A DNA stretch of 40,057 nucleotides from Myxococcaceae bacterium. Lineage in GTDB: Bacteria > Myxococcota > Myxococcia > Myxococcales > Myxococcaceae. Shown one piece after another: positions 8,618-19,897 of this stretch; within the stretch, counting starts at the first letter, position 1; every line of letters begins with the position of its first letter. The translations under genes and the position numbers were made by a program. The notes under the pieces are model-generated. The model was not told the DNA's origin. It made no database searches and was given only the letters and a program-made list of their open reading frames with translations. The stretch spans positions 1-40,057 of the forward strand of contig JAFGNZ010000190.1 of assembly GCA_016926755.1 (NCBI GenBank), in the 5' to 3' direction.

Positions 8618-9199
8618 ATGCCGGCGAACAAGGTGGATCTCGCGGCACGCCTCACGGCCGCTCATCCAGGAGACAACGTCCTCGGGCTGTTCTTCACCAC
8701 GGTGTTCCACATCGTCGAGCAGCAGGCAGGGCCCGCCGCCCTGATGAAGGTGCGCACCGGCGAGCTGGCCAAGGACTACAGCGAGCTGCGCATGTATCCG
8801 GTGCAGGACTTCCTCCACCTCATCTACCAGGTGGCGGATCTGCTCGAGGGAAAGCTCGGCTCTCCGGAGGACGTCTTCCGCACCTGCGGGGAGACGAGCA
8901 TGACGCGCTACAACTCCGGCCCGGGCCGCTTCCTCTTCGGCGTGCTCGTCCGGGGGGATCCGCACAAGCTCTTCTCCATGGCGCAGATCGGCTACAGCAC
9001 CGCCGTCACCTACGGGCGCCGCGAGTACAAGCCCGTCAGCCCCAAGGCCGGCGTGCTGCGCGCCAACGGCGACATGATCCCCCCGGCCTACCATGAGGGC
9101 GTCATCATCGGCTCGCTGAAGCTGCTCAACATCCAGGGCCACGCGCGGGCTCGCCCGCAGGGGGTGGACCGCGTGGAGTACGACATCACCTGGAACTGA
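8618..9199 (+). CDS. TIGR02265 (DUF2378) family protein, Myxococcus paralogous family
   Basis: The 193-residue protein starts MPANKVDLAA after an AGGGG. Features such as DYSELRMYPVQDFL, the segment around TRYNSGPGRFLFG, and the C-terminal half with YGRREYKP and the final DRVEYDITW fit the Myxococcus-expanded family TIGR02265/DUF2378. The family is present in many copies in myxobacteria and has no established function. There is no signal peptide or membrane segment. A candidate -10 box, TAGAAT, lies at 8566-8571. Its last 14 bases overlap, tail to tail, the end of the leftward graspetide precursor gene. Whether it has anything to do with that locus is open. Confidence 0.85.
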   Translation: MPANKVDLAARLTAAHPGDNVLGLFFTTVFHIVEQQAGPAALMKVRTGELAKDYSELRMYPVQDFLHLIYQVADLLEGKLGSPEDVFRTCGETSMTRYNSGPGRFLFGVLVRGDPHKLFSMAQIGYSTAVTYGRREYKPVSPKAGVLRANGDMIPPAYHEGVIIGSLKLLNIQGHARARPQGVDRVEYDITWN

Positions 9200-9374
9200 G
9201 GCCCGCGCCTCGGGGGCGGGGGCCGCCGCTCTCCTCCCCGACCGCCAGGGTCGTCACCGGCCGGGGCTTGCCCTTGCCCGCCTGCTCGTCCAGGCTCTCG
9301 GACTTCGGGGGCTCGCCGGCGCCTGGCTCGGGCAGCTCGTACCGGATGAACGATGCTCTGTGGCGCTCCGTCAT
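9186..9374 (-). CDS. Graspetide (omega-ester peptide) precursor with TTLAVGEE core
   Basis: The gene encodes 62 residues and has a strong Shine-Dalgarno, AGGAGG, four bases before the ATG. Codons are almost all G/C-ending, as in a real gene here. The leader begins MTERHRASFIRYELPEP; residues 41-48 are Thr-Thr-Leu-Ala-Val-Gly-Glu-Glu (coding bases 9231-9254), followed by a 14-residue Gly/Pro/Arg/Ser-rich tail. This matches the TTxxxxEE core of plesiocin-type graspetides, in which two Thr side chains are joined by esters to two Glu side chains, giving a hairpin-like bicycle. The ATP-grasp ligase required for that chemistry is encoded divergently 113 bp away. Only one core is present. The peptide type is inferred from the core motif plus the neighbour; the leader does not closely match any that I can recall with certainty. 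Confidence 0.78.
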   Translation of the reverse strand: MTERHRASFIRYELPEPGAGEPPKSESLDEQAGKGKPRPVTTLAVGEESGGPRPRGAGLSSR

Positions 9375-9487
9375 GGTGCCTCCTGAAGCGGGAGGGGGGC
9401 TGGGTTGCCGCCCACCCATCTATACGCCGAAGGTGAGTCCTGCTTGCCTGGAGCGGAAGTCTCCGAGTCCCCGAGGGGGGAGGCAGC

Positions 9488-10435
9488 ATGCGAATCGGTA
9501 TCTTCGGCGAGGCCAAGGATCCACAGTGCGCCGCGGTGGCCCGAGAGGCGGCGGCGCTCGGCGCGGAAGCGCTGTACGTGGACAGCCGCGCGCTGGACGA
9601 GGGCCAGCCCCTGTCCATGCTGGACGGGAAGACCTTCTACCTGGGGCAGCCCGTGGACGAGGTGCGCGGCTTCTACGTGCGCTCCATCCCCGCCCCCTAC
9701 GTCGCGGCGATGAAGAAGGATCCGGCGCTGGTGCTCCACGAGGACTGGTTCACCACCTTCAACCAGACGCGGGGGCGGGCGGGGTACTTCGTGGCGTGGC
9801 TGCTGCAGCTGTCGCACCGGGGCGCCACGCTGGTCAACGGCCCGCACGCGGCCAGCGTGATGCAGTATCCGCCCTACCAGCTCCACGCGCTGCGCAGCCT
9901 GGGAGCCAGGGTCCCGCGCACGCTCATCTCGAATGATCCGGCCGCCATCCGCGCCTTCCACGCGGAGGTGAAGGACGTGCTCTACAAGCCCCTGCTGGGC
10001 GGGGCGGGCGCGCGGGCGCTGGAGGCCGAGGCGCTGGAGCGCCTGGAGGCGCTGACGGCCGCGCCCGTCATCTTCCAGGAGCGCGTGCAGGGCGAGGACG
10101 TGCGCGTGCTGCTGGTGGGAGACGAGCTCGTCTCGTGCGTGGCCTCCACGACGCCGGAGCAGCGCCTGGCCCTCGAGGGCGACGCTGACGCCGGCGAGCT
10201 CCTGTACCATGAGGTGGCGCTGCCCGAGCCCGTGCAGCGCTTCTGCCGGGCGGCGGCGAGGGCGTGCGGGCTGACGTTCGCGGGCTTCCAGCTCAAGCAG
10301 CGCGGCAACGACTTCGTCTTCCTGGAGCTCAACAGCACGCCCGGCTACCTGGAGGTGGAGCTGCAGCTGGGGCACCGCATCAGCCGGGCCATCGCGCGCC
10401 GGGTGGTGGAGGGCGCGCGCGCGGCGATGCGGTAG
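9488..10435 (+). CDS. ATP-grasp ligase, predicted graspetide macrocyclase
   Basis: The 315-residue protein has the three-part layout of RimK/MvdD-type ATP-grasp enzymes. An N-terminal Rossmann-like lobe (MRIGIFGEAKDPQC) is followed by the ATP-binding Lys167 in LYKPLLGGAG, then FQERVQGEDVRVLLVG (Glu198, Asp204, Arg206), and the metal-binding FLELNSTPG (Glu280, Asn282). The D-x-R at 204-206 occupies the place where graspetide ligases carry a motif proposed to contact the core. It should activate Glu side-chain carboxylates of the TTLAVGEE peptide as acyl phosphates, and Thr hydroxyls then attack to form esters. The start is supported by GGGAGG four bases upstream. The gene is divergent from the precursor, so the 113-bp gap must hold both promoters. 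Convergent kup ends 10 bp downstream. A general RimK-like ligase is the alternative. Confidence 0.82.
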   Translation: MRIGIFGEAKDPQCAAVAREAAALGAEALYVDSRALDEGQPLSMLDGKTFYLGQPVDEVRGFYVRSIPAPYVAAMKKDPALVLHEDWFTTFNQTRGRAGYFVAWLLQLSHRGATLVNGPHAASVMQYPPYQLHALRSLGARVPRTLISNDPAAIRAFHAEVKDVLYKPLLGGAGARALEAEALERLEALTAAPVIFQERVQGEDVRVLLVGDELVSCVASTTPEQRLALEGDADAGELLYHEVALPEPVQRFCRAAARACGLTFAGFQLKQRGNDFVFLELNSTPGYLEVELQLGHRISRAIARRVVEGARAAMR

Positions 10436-10445
10436 GCCCTGGCGC

Positions 10446-12368
10446 CTACAGCTCCACCTGCGTGCCCAGCTCCACCACGCGGTTGGGGGGGATCCGGAAG
10501 AACGCCGTGGCGCTGCGCGCGTTGCGGCTCATCCACGAGAACAGCGCCTCGCGCCAGATCGCCATCCCCGGCTTCTTCGAGGGGATCAACGTCTCGCGCC
10601 CCAGGAAGAACGAGGTGGACATCAGCTGGAACTGCAGGCCCTTCTCCCGGCACTTCTTGAGGATGTCCGGGATGCTGGGGTTCTCCATGAAGCCGTAGCG
10701 GGCGATCACCCGCACGAAGCCCAGCTCCAGCGGCTCCACCTCCACCCGCTCCTCCAGCGCCACGTGCGGCACGTCCTCCGAGAGGATGGTGAGCAGCACC
10801 ACCTGCTCGTGCAGCACCTTGTTGTGCTTGAGGTTGTGCAGCAGCGCCGGCGGCGAGCCCTCCGGGTTGCCCGTCATGAACACCGCCGTGCCCGGCACCC
10901 GCACCGGCGCGTGCTCGCCCTTGAAGCTGTCCAGCAGATCCTCGAGGTCCATGCTCGCCGCGCGCAGCTTGCCCGCGAGGATCTCCCGCCCGCGCTTCCA
11001 CGTCGTCATCAGCGTGAAGAGCGCCACCGCCAGCACCAGCGGGAACCAGCCGCCATCAGCGATCTTCACCGCGTTGGCGCCGAAGAAGGACAGGTCCACC
11101 GCCAGGAACGCCCCTGCCACCGGCAGCGCCACCGCCCGCCGCACGCCCCAGCGCTCGCGCGCCAGCACGTACGCCAGCATCGTGGTGATGGCCATGGTCG
11201 TCGTCACCGCGATGCCGTACGCCGCCGCCAGCGCGCTCGAGGAGCGGAACCCCAGCACGAGCGCCACGACGCCCACCAGCAACATCAGGTTGAGGCCAGG
11301 CAGGTAGATCTGCCCCTTCTCCTCCGCCGAGGTGTGCACCACCTCCATGCGCGGAGAGTACCCGAGCTGCATCGACTGGCGCGTGAGCGAGAAGGCACCC
11401 GAGATGAGCGCCTGGGACGCGATCACCGTGGCCCCCGTGGCCAGCGCCACGAGCGGGTAGAGCGCCCAGTCCGGGGCCAGCAGGTAGAAGGGGTTGCGCG
11501 CCGCCGTCGGATCCCTCAGCAGCAGCGCCCCCTGCCCCAGGTAGTTGAGCATCAACCCCGGCAGCACCAACGCGAACCACGCCTGGCGGATGGGCTTCCA
11601 GCCAAAGTGCCCCATGTCCGCGTAGAGGGCCTCGCCGCCCGTCACCACCAGGAAGACGGCGCCCAGCACCAGGAAGCCGTGTCCCCCGTTCTCCAGGAAG
11701 AAGCGCACCCCGTGCGTCGGCGACAGCGCCCCCAGCACCGCCGGGTTGTGCACCAGTTCCTTTCCCCCCAGCACTCCCAGCGCGATGAACCACAGGCACA
11801 TGAAGGGCCCGAACACGTTGCCGATGCCCCCCGTCCCGTGCCGCTGCACCAGGAAGAGCGTCAGCAGGATGACCAGCGTAATCGGGATGATGTAGGGCTC
11901 GAAGACGGGGGTCGCCACGCTCAGGCCCTCCACCGCGCTCAGCACCGAGATGGCCGGCGTGATGAGCCCGTCCCCGTACAGGAGCGACGCGCCGAAGATT
12001 CCCAGCACCAGCAGCACGGGGCGCGCCGGGCTCGGCCCCCGGCTTCCCCGGGGCCGCTGCATGACCAGCGCCAGCAGCGCCAGGATGCCGCCCTCGCCCC
12101 GGTTGTCTGCTCGCATCACGAAGATCAGGTACTTCACCGAGACGACGATGAGCAGTGACCAGAAGATGAGCGACAGCACCCCCAGCACGTTGCCCGGCGT
12201 CGCGGCGATCCCGTGCGGCCCACTGAAGCACTCGCGCAGCGCGTACAGCGGGCTGGTGCCAATGTCCCCGTAGACGATGCCCAGCGCGCCCAGCGCCAGC
12301 AGCGCCGTGCGTTTGAAGGTATCTGGCCCCTCGGCCAGGGAGGCGGGGGCTTCTGGGGTCGGGTTCAC
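10446..12368 (-). CDS. kup: Kup low-affinity potassium transporter
   Basis: The 640-residue protein is a full-length KUP/HAK/KT family K+ uptake permease. The N-terminus has the signature GALGIVYGDIGTSPLYA in the first membrane helix, followed by about twelve hydrophobic segments ending near residue 450. A hydrophilic cytoplasmic C-terminal domain of about 180 residues follows, also as expected. It imports K+ with protons. The start is a GTG at 12366-12368 with GGAGG just upstream. It stands alone and is convergent with the ATP-grasp gene. No regulatory K+ riboswitch was seen. Confidence 0.95.
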   Translation of the reverse strand: MNPTPEAPASLAEGPDTFKRTALLALGALGIVYGDIGTSPLYALRECFSGPHGIAATPGNVLGVLSLIFWSLLIVVSVKYLIFVMRADNRGEGGILALLALVMQRPRGSRGPSPARPVLLVLGIFGASLLYGDGLITPAISVLSAVEGLSVATPVFEPYIIPITLVILLTLFLVQRHGTGGIGNVFGPFMCLWFIALGVLGGKELVHNPAVLGALSPTHGVRFFLENGGHGFLVLGAVFLVVTGGEALYADMGHFGWKPIRQAWFALVLPGLMLNYLGQGALLLRDPTAARNPFYLLAPDWALYPLVALATGATVIASQALISGAFSLTRQSMQLGYSPRMEVVHTSAEEKGQIYLPGLNLMLLVGVVALVLGFRSSSALAAAYGIAVTTTMAITTMLAYVLARERWGVRRAVALPVAGAFLAVDLSFFGANAVKIADGGWFPLVLAVALFTLMTTWKRGREILAGKLRAASMDLEDLLDSFKGEHAPVRVPGTAVFMTGNPEGSPPALLHNLKHNKVLHEQVVLLTILSEDVPHVALEERVEVEPLELGFVRVIARYGFMENPSIPDILKKCREKGLQFQLMSTSFFLGRETLIPSKKPGMAIWREALFSWMSRNARSATAFFRIPPNRVVELGTQVEL

Positions 12369-16422: not shown

Positions 16423-18429
16423 CTACTTCGCACCCGAGGCGCCGGGCGCCGCCGGCGCGCTGCCCAGGTGTTTCTCGAGGAACATGAGCGTCGACATCAT
16501 CGCGTAGTCCCGGTTGGCCTTCTTCTGGAAGCCGTGCCCCTCGTCGAGCGCGAGCATGTACCAGACGTCGGCGCCCCGGGCCCGCACCGCCTTGACGATC
16601 TGCTCCGCCTCGGACTGCGGCACGCGCGGATCATTCTTGCCCTGCAGCACGAGGAGCGCCGCGCGGATGCGCTCCACGAAGTTCAGCGGAGAGATCCGCT
16701 CCTGAACCTTGCGCACCTGCGGATCCCGCTCGTCCCCATACTCGGCGCGGCGCAAGTCCCTGCGGTAGGCCTGCGTGCTCTGCAGGAAGGTGGGCAGGGA
16801 GGAGATGCCCACCGCGTCCACCACGGCCTTGATGCGCTCCGGGTAGAAGACGGCCGTGGCCAGCACCATGTAGCCGCCGTACGAGCCGCCGTAGACGCCG
16901 ACGCGCGAGGCATTCAGGTCCTTCCGCGCGGCGATGAAGTCCAGCGTGGCGCCGATGTCCGCCAGGCTCTGCTCGCGCTTCACCCCGTCATCCATGGCCC
17001 GGTACGCCTTGCCGTAGCCCTCCGAGCCGCGCACGTTGGGCAGCAGCACCGCCATCTTCAGCTCGGTGACGACGAACTGGACGAGGGGGCTGAAGATGGG
17101 CTGGCTCTGGGCCTCGGGCCCGCCATGGAAGATGACCACCACGGGGGCCTTCCCGCTCACCCCCCGGGGCCGGTAGAGGAAGGCCGGAACCTGTACGCCG
17201 TCGGTGGAGGGGTAGCGCACCAGCTCCGGCTCGACGAAGGTGTCCGTGTTCAGGCCGCCCACCTCCGAGCGCGTCCACCGCGTCGTCTTCTTCGTGCGCA
17301 GGTCCAGCTGCCACACGTCGATGGGCGAGCGCGCCGTCATCATCGACAGGAACAGCGTGTCCGAGCGCCTGCCGGGGAACTTCAGCTCCGTCAGCACCCC
17401 CTGGGGCAGGCTCACCGGCGAGAGCGCGCTGGTGCGCGTGTCCAGGAGATACAGCCGGCTGGAGCCGTCCTCGTTGACGGGCAGCGCGAGCTGGCGGCCA
17501 TCCGGAGAGAGCTCGAGCTCCTCCACGTTCCAGCGGATGGACTTCGTCAGCGACGGCGGCGCGGCCGTGTACGGCGCCTTGGCGAGCTCCAGCCGGTACA
17601 GCTCCGCGAAGTCGCTGTAGCGATCCGTGATGAGGTAGACGCCCTGGCCATCCGGCGTGAAGCGGGCGTCCACGACGCTGCCCAGGCCCTCCTTGGGGGT
17701 GAGCTGGCGGCGCTCGTTCGTCTTCAGATCCACCACGTGCAGATCCGCGTCGGCCACGGAGCGGAACTGCTGGACCAGCAGCTTCGAGCCGTCCCGGGAG
17801 AAGTCGACGGGGTACCAGGTGCCCTTGGCCTCGGTGATGCGGCGGGCCTGGCGGGGGTTGTCCGTGGGCGCGACGTAGACGTCCGTGTCCTCCCCGTTGC
17901 GGAGGGTGTTGCCGTAGGCCAGCCACCTGCCATCGTGGGAGAGCTCCAGCCCCTCGTGGCGGCTCTTTCCGTCGGTGATGAGCTCCGAGCGGCCGGTGCT
18001 CCGGTCGAGCCGGAACACCTGGTAGAACTCACCGCCGCCCACGTCCTGCATGTAGAAGAGGGTGCTCGGGGAGCCCGGGAGGAGGCGCGCCTCGAAGATG
18101 GGCTCGGGGGTGAAGGTGAGCTGGGTGCGCGCGCCCATGGGCTGCTCCACCAGGTGGATCTGGCTCACCTCGGAGAAGCGCGTGGAGATGATCGCCTGCC
18201 TGCCATCGTCCGAGACGTCCAGCAGCTGCGCGTTGCGGGACTCGAGGTACTGACGGACGCGGGCCTCCAGCTCGGGAGGCACGGCGGGGATGCCACTGAC
18301 GAGGACATTGGGGAGCCCGGACAGCGGCGCCACACCGGCCACGGTGGAGTGCGCGGCGGGAGCGGGCTTCCCAGGCTGTGCCTGCGCGGTGAGCAGGGAC
18401 ACCAGGAGCGGCAGGGTGGAGAGGTTCAT
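16423..18429 (-). CDS. S9-family prolyl oligopeptidase / acylaminoacyl-peptidase
   Basis: The 668-residue protein has a signal peptide (MNLSTLPLLVSLLTAQAQ). An N-terminal beta-propeller with SHDGRWLAYG, SRDGSKLLV and SPDGRQLALP repeats spans about residues 70-400, and a C-terminal alpha/beta-hydrolase domain follows. The catalytic triad is visible: Ser516 in GGSYGG, Asp600 in GKNDPRV and His632 in DEGHGF. Such enzymes cut short peptides, the propeller limiting access to the active site. The signal peptide points to a periplasmic or secreted enzyme, in keeping with predatory nutrition. The small exported protein follows 10 bp downstream on the same strand. Confidence 0.93.
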   Translation of the reverse strand: MNLSTLPLLVSLLTAQAQPGKPAPAAHSTVAGVAPLSGLPNVLVSGIPAVPPELEARVRQYLESRNAQLLDVSDDGRQAIISTRFSEVSQIHLVEQPMGARTQLTFTPEPIFEARLLPGSPSTLFYMQDVGGGEFYQVFRLDRSTGRSELITDGKSRHEGLELSHDGRWLAYGNTLRNGEDTDVYVAPTDNPRQARRITEAKGTWYPVDFSRDGSKLLVQQFRSVADADLHVVDLKTNERRQLTPKEGLGSVVDARFTPDGQGVYLITDRYSDFAELYRLELAKAPYTAAPPSLTKSIRWNVEELELSPDGRQLALPVNEDGSSRLYLLDTRTSALSPVSLPQGVLTELKFPGRRSDTLFLSMMTARSPIDVWQLDLRTKKTTRWTRSEVGGLNTDTFVEPELVRYPSTDGVQVPAFLYRPRGVSGKAPVVVIFHGGPEAQSQPIFSPLVQFVVTELKMAVLLPNVRGSEGYGKAYRAMDDGVKREQSLADIGATLDFIAARKDLNASRVGVYGGSYGGYMVLATAVFYPERIKAVVDAVGISSLPTFLQSTQAYRRDLRRAEYGDERDPQVRKVQERISPLNFVERIRAALLVLQGKNDPRVPQSEAEQIVKAVRARGADVWYMLALDEGHGFQKKANRDYAMMSTLMFLEKHLGSAPAAPGASGAK

Positions 18430-18446: not shown

Positions 18447-18683
18447 TCAGAAGCCGTGCGGGTTCCTCGGCGGGTTCACCAGCCAGTCCACCATTGCGTC
18501 CAGCATCTTCCAAAGTCCGCCCCCCACGCCGCTGAAGCCCGGCTGCGGCGCGGCCCGCGGAGCCTGGCCGAGCCCTTCGCTCCCCCCAAGGCCCGCCCCG
18601 CTCCGCCTGACGCGCGACAGCATACAGGCGGTCTCTTGGCTCGGCATCCGCGATGCAGTGAAGATGGGGGTATAGGAGTCCAC
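18447..18683 (-). CDS. Possible small hypothetical protein
   Basis: An open frame of 78 codons with a GTG start ends 17 bp before the prolyl oligopeptidase start on the same strand. Codon third positions are G/C in most codons, and the C-terminus (LWKMLDAMVDWLVNPP) looks like an amphipathic helix. Against it, the frame abuts the divergent start at 18686, no homologue is recognised, and the middle is low-complexity Gly/Pro. It may instead be the promoter region of the two divergent transcription units. Confidence 0.25.
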   Translation of the reverse strand: MDSYTPIFTASRMPSQETACMLSRVRRSGAGLGGSEGLGQAPRAAPQPGFSGVGGGLWKMLDAMVDWLVNPPRNPHGF

Positions 18684-18685
18684 AC

Positions 18686-19897
18686 ATGCGTGCCCCCAGC
18701 ATCCTGCTGCTCCTCTTCGCCGCCGCCGCGAACGCCCAGCCCTCCCAGAAGGCGCCGCCCGAAGAGCTCCTCACGCCGCCTCCCATCACCTCCGCGCCCC
18801 GAGACGATGAGCCCCTGCCGGTCCGCGTGCCCGAACCGGCTGCCAACCCCGAGGACGAGTTCCTCCCGCTCCCCGGCACCTCCGCTTCTCCCGCCGAGCC
18901 GCCCCCGCCGCCGCGCGCCACCTCCACGCCTCGAATCGCGCCACCGAGCACCCCGCCACCGCCGCGCGCCGCCACCGCCGCACCAGCCCAGCCCGCGCCG
19001 CCCCGCGCCGTCGGCCCCGCCGAGCCCGCCAGGAGCCGCGCCCTGCGCTACAGCCGCTACTCCGCGGGCGCGGGGGGCCCCGTCCTCGCGCTCGCCGAGG
19101 GGATGATCGGCATCGCCACCGGCGCGATGCTGGGCTCCGCCTTCGACATCGCCAGCAGCCAGGAGGACAGCGATGGCTACACGGGGGCCATCATCGGCGG
19201 GCTCACGCTGGGCACCGCCGCCACCATCTACCAGTACTTCGTCCCCATCGGGCGCCGCGAGGGGCTGCTCGCCGCGGGCGCGGCGACGGCGGGGTTGATG
19301 GCCAGCCTCACCCTCGCCAACTCGCGTGACTTGAGCGACCAGGACAGCTCGATGCTCGCCTTTGGCGCCACCCAGGCGGGCGTCGCCGCCGTGCTCCTGC
19401 TCACCGCGGGCGGCGGGGACGTGAGCGCCGGAGACGCGGGGCTCATCGGCGCCACCTCGCTCTACAGCTTCATCATCGTGGGCCTCGTCGAGTACATCCA
19501 CGCCAAGCAGACCCAGCAGCACTACAACTACGTGCCCCTCCTGCTGGCGCCCGCCGTCGGCATGGCCCTGGGCGGGTTGATCGCCATCCCCGCGGAGATG
19601 TCGTCCACCGGCGTCTTCGAGCTCACCGCCTATCCGCTCGGCACGGGCCTGCTGGCGCTCCTGCTCGGCTCGCGGCTGGCCGACAACGTCCTCGTCGCCA
19701 AGGCGATGCTGGGCACCATCGCCGGCACCTTCGCCATCGTCGGCATGGTCAACCTGCTCTCCGGCGCGCCCGTGGAGGCTCCCCAGGCGTCCGCCTCCGC
19801 CGAGTCCTTCGAGGCCATGCCCGTCCCCGTGGTGATGACGGCGGGCCGCAACCATGACTCGCTCGCGGCGGGCCCTGGCCTCTTCGTGCGGTTCTGA
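18686..19897 (+). CDS. Paralogous exported membrane protein 1 of 3, unknown function
   Basis: The 403-residue protein has a signal peptide (MRAPSILLLLFAAAANAQ), then a Pro/Ala-rich linker of about 95 residues. The core opens with RYSRYSAGAGGP and contains several glycine-rich hydrophobic segments, including GYTGAIIGGLTLGTAATIYQ and APAVGMALGGL. The C-terminus ends AAGPGLFVRF. The next two genes encode clear homologues in the same order of blocks, so this is a tandem triplication. The start has TAGGAG seven to eight bases upstream. The second gene begins 7 bp after this stop, so the trio is an operon. The final residues alternate hydrophobic/polar and end in Phe, like the beta-signal of outer-membrane proteins, but the core looks helical. 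The function is not recognised. Confidence 0.75.
   Translation: MRAPSILLLLFAAAANAQPSQKAPPEELLTPPPITSAPRDDEPLPVRVPEPAANPEDEFLPLPGTSASPAEPPPPPRATSTPRIAPPSTPPPPRAATAAPAQPAPPRAVGPAEPARSRALRYSRYSAGAGGPVLALAEGMIGIATGAMLGSAFDIASSQEDSDGYTGAIIGGLTLGTAATIYQYFVPIGRREGLLAAGAATAGLMASLTLANSRDLSDQDSSMLAFGATQAGVAAVLLLTAGGGDVSAGDAGLIGATSLYSFIIVGLVEYIHAKQTQQHYNYVPLLLAPAVGMALGGLIAIPAEMSSTGVFELTAYPLGTGLLALLLGSRLADNVLVAKAMLGTIAGTFAIVGMVNLLSGAPVEAPQASASAESFEAMPVPVVMTAGRNHDSLAAGPGLFVRF

Follow-up and report, generated by a model that had tools for sequence, protein, structure and literature searches.

A plesiocin-type graspetide locus with a degenerate ligase in a Myxococcaceae bacterium, probably a relic of a family with one to 18 cores per precursor

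A divergent precursor and ligase

The window analysed here, a 40,057-nucleotide stretch of a Myxococcaceae genome (assembly GCA_016926755.1, contig JAFGNZ010000190.1), carries a two-gene graspetide locus. The precursor gene (9186-9374, minus strand) encodes 62 amino acids (MTERHRASFIRYELPEPGAGEPPKSESLDEQAGKGKPRPVTTLAVGEESGGPRPRGAGLSSR), and the Shine-Dalgarno sequence AGGAGG (9379-9384, minus strand) lies 4 nucleotides 5′ of its ATG. It contains a leader motif, SFIRYELP (9330-9353, minus strand), and a single TTxxxxEE core, TTLAVGEE (9231-9254, minus strand), both of types common to the divergent precursors of related loci. Its last 14 bases (9186-9199) overlap the 3′ end of a convergent DUF2378/TIGR02265 gene (8618-9199, plus strand), which profile matches and the neighbourhood comparison place outside the pathway. 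On the other side of the precursor, an open frame (9488-10435, plus strand) encodes an ATP-grasp ligase of 315 amino acids that is PsnB-type by sequence, profile and fold and has a degenerate active site in the alignment. A Kup potassium transporter gene, identified by profile matches and neighbourhood comparison (10446-12368, minus strand), served as a flanking control. This arrangement agrees with the original prediction of a 62-residue peptide with a strong Shine-Dalgarno sequence and a plesiocin-type TTxxxxEE core, lying partly over the end of another gene and divergent from a 315-residue ATP-grasp ligase.

The two start codons are separated by 113 bases (ATG to ATG). This intergenic stretch (9375-9487) is strongly conserved by eye in the window and in two related loci, L009 and L011 (GCAAGCAGGACTCACCTTC.GCGTATAGATGGGTGG), and is perhaps a shared divergent promoter.

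TTLAVGEE is not a chance motif: the six-frame translation of the window, taken in stop-to-stop stretches of 40 amino acids or more, contains TTx4EE a single time, whereas 30 first-order Markov samples average 0.07. At the DNA level, the pattern TTxA[codon with T in the middle]GEE, which excludes other core spellings such as TS or ST forms, has a single match in the 9.59-Mb genome, namely this core, and its reversed control has none.

Relation to graspetide synthetases

The ligase is homologous to graspetide synthetases rather than to RimK or GshB. Its best sequence match in the PDB is a PsnB chain (128 bits, 3e-36), compared with 22 bits for the best RimK chain and 34-39 bits for the MdnB/MdnC (MvdC/MvdD) chains of microviridin biosynthesis. 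Foldseek searches with the predicted model return PsnB at ranks 1 to 15 (TMq 0.78-0.83) and RimK for the first time at rank 32. The best NCBIfam model is TIGR04187, with 98 bits against a cut-off of 350 bits, and the RimK family scores 35; in Pfam, whose hits to this protein include no graspetide model, RimK (31.7 bits) and GSH-S_ATP (28.4 bits) come out on top. The glutathione- or RimK-like assignment that would have contradicted the predicted family is thus rejected by the sequence and profile scores and by the fold, and the place of RimK is open in the tree alone.

A quick tree of 48 rows places the ligase in a 27-row clade (SH-aLRT 99), apart from a second clade that unites PsnB with seven Myxococcaceae ligases (support 98). 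The join of these two clades against RimK, a single row on a long branch (2.3), is drawn open with support below 80. All seven PsnB-clade ligases (L032-L037 and L076) have their precursor on the ligase's own strand, with one core each by the expression used: TTMxVGEE, or TTYACGEE in L036. Plesiocin, the PsnA2/PsnB product of Plesiocystis pacifica (graspetide group 2), is itself myxobacterial. The window locus resembles it in its TTxxxxEE core, its single ligase, and the fold and sequence of that ligase. However, the window ligase belongs to a separate clade, in which directly divergent TT-type precursors predominate (22 of 26 loci), its active site is degenerate, and its precursor has one core as against four in plesiocin. 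By descent, the locus is a member of a known graspetide kind; the kind itself is not new. The predicted graspetide family with a plesiocin-type core is borne out, as PsnB is the closest relative of solved structure by both sequence and fold and TTxxxxEE cores are common in the clade.

A two-gene family with one to 18 cores

The 27 clade ligases come from 26 loci, 26 of the 27 loci found at 53% identity or more being counted. Eight entries that were the same records as kept rows had been left out before the tree (L004, L028, L038, L039, L041, L043, L044, L060), as had L042 and L063, one locus cut at a contig start, with no upstream DNA. Precursors of the TTxxxxEE type, with TS/ST and ED forms counted, are found in 23 of the 26 loci and hold 1 to 18 cores each. 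The motif is therefore conserved in orthologous loci, as the original prediction demanded. An open precursor with leader and TT-type core or cores lies directly divergent from the ligase in 22 of the 26, and in L069 it is located between two ligases. The three loci that lack a TT-type precursor in one frame are L002 (single-Thr cores), L023 (whose leader and cores fall in separate frames) and L031 (a ligase fragment with disrupted frames). L023 (G087:C89) also has a TGA inside its ligase and is possibly another decaying or error-ridden copy.

Core number varies widely within this family. One core is present in the window, L012, L015, L016 and L018; two in L009, L010, L011, L013 and L014; and 10 to 18 in L017, L019, L022, L024, L025, L027, L040, L061, L062 and L069. 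In L020, L021 and L026, the cores run off the contig after at least 5, at least 8 and at least 6, respectively. The precursors of L010, L014, L016, L020, L021 and L024, where the leader regular expression was unreliable, were read directly from their sequences. The five two-core loci are exactly the other members of the window's six-row subclade (support 94), so the single core of the window is a derived loss. The window precursor ends in the tail GLSSR, which reads into the end of the DUF2378 gene at the place where these five loci have their second core. The locus had been called minimal; its small size is secondary.

Core position 3 was tabulated for 162 cores from 21 loci and is Leu in 56, Met in 51, Lys in 38, Gln in 7, Ala in 4, Glu in 3 and Arg in 3. 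Seven loci (L017, L019, L027, L040, L061, L062, L069) have arrays of 13-18 TTxAxGEE-like cores that mix Leu or Met with Lys, Arg or Gln at this position. If position 3 sets protease specificity, such arrays could be natural multi-headed inhibitors of mixed specificity, and counterparts of the bifunctional plesiocin that has reportedly been engineered may already exist in nature.

The hydrophobic and aromatic leader motif of the window, SFIRYELP, recurs in some form in most relatives (e.g., PFIKFELP and PFTRYELP), whereas L019 (GLVKYALP) and L024 (SLPKYELG) deviate from it. It can be set beside the graspetide leader motif 'Phhx(1,2)h' described in PMC8939145.

Gene neighbourhoods

Eight regions were compared, with part of the neighbouring genes annotated, so that a distant protease or transporter gene may be present. 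The four near regions (G002, G020, Hyalangium versicolor and G005) keep the metallophosphoesterase gene, and they also keep Kup, except for G005 in the stretch read. The four others (L039, L041, L040 and L074) have just the ligase in common with the window, save for a histidine kinase in L040 that matches at about 41% identity. In G001 and G003, both genus-mates, nothing matches the window ligase at more than 36%, although metallophosphoesterase and Kup are present there on a single contig, separated by about 8 kb.

Between DUF2378 and the precursor, G002 carries four further genes, by Pfam an SDR-type gene, a cREC_REC gene, a LysR regulator and a LigB-type dioxygenase. H. versicolor has open reading frames that match three of the four by eye, and G020 has neither these genes nor DUF2378 at that place. 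Two of the four were searched in the window genome (G000), which has only 47-58% homologues of them elsewhere. Given this and the state of G020, a deletion in the window lineage is no more likely than an insertion in the common ancestor of G002 and H. versicolor. The loss of the second core does not depend on this question, because it is the five other subclade loci that have two cores.

Loss of active-site residues

The original prediction held that the ligase has an intact Lys/Glu/Asn site. Lys167, Glu280 and Asn282 are indeed present, as are Glu198, Asp204 and Arg206, but five residues of the clade are replaced: Lys128, Asp228, Phe229, Arg230 and Asp268 have become Pro, Ala, Leu, Glu and Gln. 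The comparison rests on a 41-row alignment that includes the clade, 11 distant ligases, PsnB, RimK, and MvdC- and MvdD-type ligases. Pro128 (codon 9869-9871, plus strand) stands where every other row with a letter has Lys. Ala-Leu-Glu 228-230 (10169-10177, plus strand) replaces Asp-Phe/Tyr-Arg of the clade and Asp-Phe-Arg of PsnB, and Gln268 (codon 10289-10291, plus strand) replaces the Asp of the other rows. Among the other clade members that have a residue aligned there, K128 is kept in 24 of 24, and R230 and D268 in 25 of 25 each; all three are also kept in the 11 distant ligases, in PsnB, and in the RimK, MvdD-type and MvdC-type ligases of the same genome. D228 is Asp in all 25 other clade rows and in the remaining rows, except for Glu in RimK. 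Further residues seen in the window alone are Gly96 (Glu in 23 of 24 other clade rows) and Ala175 (Thr in 25 of 25). Overall, of 83 columns without variation among the other clade members, the window ligase differs at 10; the maximum among the 24 full-length other clade ligases is 5 of 79 (L019 and L069), and the fragment L031 departs at 39 of 87.

The D-x-R motif cited for the ligase exists, as D204 and R206, yet it is not diagnostic, since RimK of this genome shows the same two residues at these columns.

The positions of K128, K167, D268, E280 and N282 are presumably ATP or metal contacts, as in ATP-grasp enzymes generally. The D268 column corresponds to residue 281 of the MdnC chain, so Gln268 probably occupies the position of D280 in AMdnC, a protein outside the alignment. 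The AMdnC variants K165A and D280A are inactive according to PMC5934393. Several of the ATP-, metal- and substrate-site residues that a working pathway would need intact are replaced in the window ligase (K128P, D228A, R230E, D268Q).

The predicted structure is poorly defined in the same region. In the AlphaFold model of the window ligase, loop 224-234 has a pLDDT below 50, and the blocks spanning residues 221-240 have means of 50 and 60. The corresponding blocks of the L009 ligase, modelled from the same 31 proteins, have means of 77 and 85, with a low stretch of its own at 73-81.

Since the active site is not intact, the prediction that the pair makes a Thr-Glu bicyclic ester peptide is left unsupported.

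Substitution pattern along the ligase branch

A purpose-written two-ratio codon model was applied to the window, G002, G020, H. versicolor and G005. For the ligase, dN/dS is 0.368 on the window branch and 0.081 on the other branches (2dl 24.1, p 9.3e-7). The flanking genes show no such difference: Kup has 0.062 on the window branch and 0.063 on the rest (without G005), and the metallophosphoesterase has 0.082 and 0.063. Counts of private codon changes agree. Nonsynonymous and synonymous changes in the ligase number 31:11 in the window, 1:7 in G002, 9:6 in G020 and 13:15 in H. versicolor, so that the window exceeds the three sister branches combined (23:28, Fisher p 0.006) and also three flanking genes (58:73, p 0.001), of which DUF2378 was counted for G002 and H. 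versicolor only and stood outside the codon model. An amidase control was dropped on account of an out-of-frame alignment (8% identity between the window and G020). As a simple count ratio, the window has 0.94; among the sister branches, G020 is fairly high at 0.53, and the other two have 0.05 and 0.30. The terminal branch of the window ligase in the tree is 0.20 long, compared with 0.03-0.07 for L009, L010 and L011.

Neutral decay from the outset (dN/dS = 1) is rejected by the codon model despite the count ratio of 0.94, as the window branch lies below 1 (2dl 8.3, p 0.004). A raised ratio of this size would be expected either if decay started part-way along the branch or if some constraint persists.

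Private amino-acid changes are absent from the leader SFIRYELP and the core KPRPVTTLAVGEE of the precursor, although the rate of the ligase would predict about 3.1 over these 21 codons, which were chosen after the alignment had been seen (P = 0.043). This is weak evidence that the precursor may still be in use.

A relic in decay and its alternatives

Taken together, the residue losses and the raised dN/dS make it very likely that the ligase has lost its activity. The pair is most probably a relic in decay, the product of which is probably no longer made. The locus would descend from a Myxococcaceae family of two-gene, mostly divergent plesiocin-type graspetide loci. In working members, by analogy with the known family, the ligase would bind the leader, two Glu side chains would be phosphorylated with ATP and Mg, and two Thr hydroxyls would attack them to give two nested esters per core, with the loss of 2 x 18 Da per core. 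The products of these relatives are probably serine-protease inhibitors. In plesiocin, two esters per repeat form a ring within a ring and the product inhibits proteases (PMC12291112, PMC13097080). In the window lineage, the ligase would then have lost Lys128, Asp-Phe-Arg 228-230 and Asp268, and the precursor its second core.

An unlikely alternative, which overlaps with a dead window ligase, is that the precursor has been kept and is served in trans by a second ligase of the genome. Contig C370 (G000:C370) encodes a ligase (17483-18427, minus strand) and a divergent precursor (18559-19536, plus strand; L066 5466-7537). The contig belongs to the window genome, since a neighbouring gene is 83-85% identical in all six genus-mates; the further ligase matches of these genus-mates at E 1e-20 are only 31-36% identical. 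The C370 ligase is the only other ligase of the window clade in the genome, is 57% identical to the window ligase and keeps all 12 residues checked. The two leaders are similar (SSFIKYESP in C370, ASFIRYELP in the window), the window core is the genome's only match of the TTxAxGEE pattern used, and its leader and core lack private changes (P = 0.043). However, leader recognition is putative, and a P value of this size for such short motifs is weak evidence. Furthermore, the C370 precursor (326 amino acids) has 14 cores of the form [RQHY]TxxxPEE, with one Thr and PEE in place of TT and GEE, and each is predicted to form at most one Thr ester. A bolder version, equally doubtful, is a graspetide swap: the ancestral bicyclic TTxxxxEE system would be on its way out (dead ligase, one core lost), with the single-Thr array and ligase of C370 in its place, and the orphan TT precursor would be retained and modified in trans by that ligase via the FI[RK]YE leader that both precursors share. 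If this were true, the single-Thr arrays of C370, of G009, where such arrays also occur, and of the G007 repeats would add a new ring topology to the plesiocin branch. The G007 repeats are found in a long protein (G007:C175; L067 4295-6082, minus strand) with a leader-like FVNYV start, 11 RTMA[FH]PED repeats and a C-terminal part; it has no Pfam match, and the 12 kb read around it hold no ligase of this type.

That the window ligase itself still makes two Thr-Glu esters in its single TTLAVGEE core is quite improbable. Frame, leader, core and Shine-Dalgarno sequence are intact, and one core as such is viable, because four clade loci (L012, L015, L016 and L018, two of them Archangium records) combine a single core with intact ligase residues. 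Against this stand the loss of K128, R230 and D268, which every other row with a letter keeps, and of D228, the raised dN/dS on the window branch, and the inactivity of the AMdnC alanine mutant at what is probably the same Asp (PMC5934393).

Alternatively, the degenerate ligase might have been retained as a pseudoenzyme, for instance one that binds the leader and assists another ligase, as a dN/dS below 1 on the window branch would allow. Other graspetide loci, those of branch 8 in PMC8939145, are reported to contain truncated ATP-grasp proteins without catalytic activity, and PMC13097080 describes partner-dependent graspetides. Such a role is nevertheless very improbable: there is no sign of a conserved class of such proteins, since none of the 25 remaining clade members that have a residue at these columns shares the losses. 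A sequencing or assembly error is hardly credible even in a draft of 409 contigs with a contamination estimate of 3.67, because each of K128P, R230E and D268Q involves two base differences from the codon in L009, the reading frame is unbroken, the substitutions are many and separate, and the flanking genes look normal.

If the window locus is a relic, motif and homology alone would send to the bench a pair whose ligase is very likely dead. The positions of K128, R230 and D268 are therefore worth checking in genome mining before cloning. The surrounding family matters more than this one locus. Within a single two-gene family, the number of cores in a precursor ranges from 1 to 18, and the locus is a pointer to its multi-core and single-Thr relatives.

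Relation to other described graspetides

A 2026 RODEO survey lists a group 35 that consists of synthetase and precursor only, and in groups 34 and 35 long precursors with repeating motifs are frequent (PMC13097080). By these descriptions, the multi-core relatives of the window locus resemble both groups. Corallotide (CorA/CorB, Corallococcus, group 15) offers a myxobacterial parallel of repeats with one ring each, as the C370 array would give. It differs in its KxxxD isopeptide and in its oxygenase and beta-lactamase partner genes, whereas Thr/Glu motifs make up the cores of the window and of C370; the comparison covers the C370 neighbours annotated so far. The microviridin ligases MdnB and MdnC share superfamily and reaction type with the window ligase but fall in a separate part of the tree and score far below PsnB. 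Clusters labelled 'microviridin' by antiSMASH are listed as conserved in Archangium and Cystobacter (PMC12766979). Among the titles and abstract openings found with queries other than the accession, none was about this locus; it may well be included in the surveys on which Lee 2020, Ramesh 2021 and PMC13097080 are based.

The window genome holds further enzymes of this superfamily. Five additional graspetide-type ATP-grasp matches are found: two on C245, where one ligase is MvdD-like by profile and the other joins MdnB in the tree, and one each on C38, C310 and C156, which are best matched by the TIGR04187 or MvdD models over partial stretches and below the cut-offs. Other ligase-like matches are RimK on C173 and one on C369.
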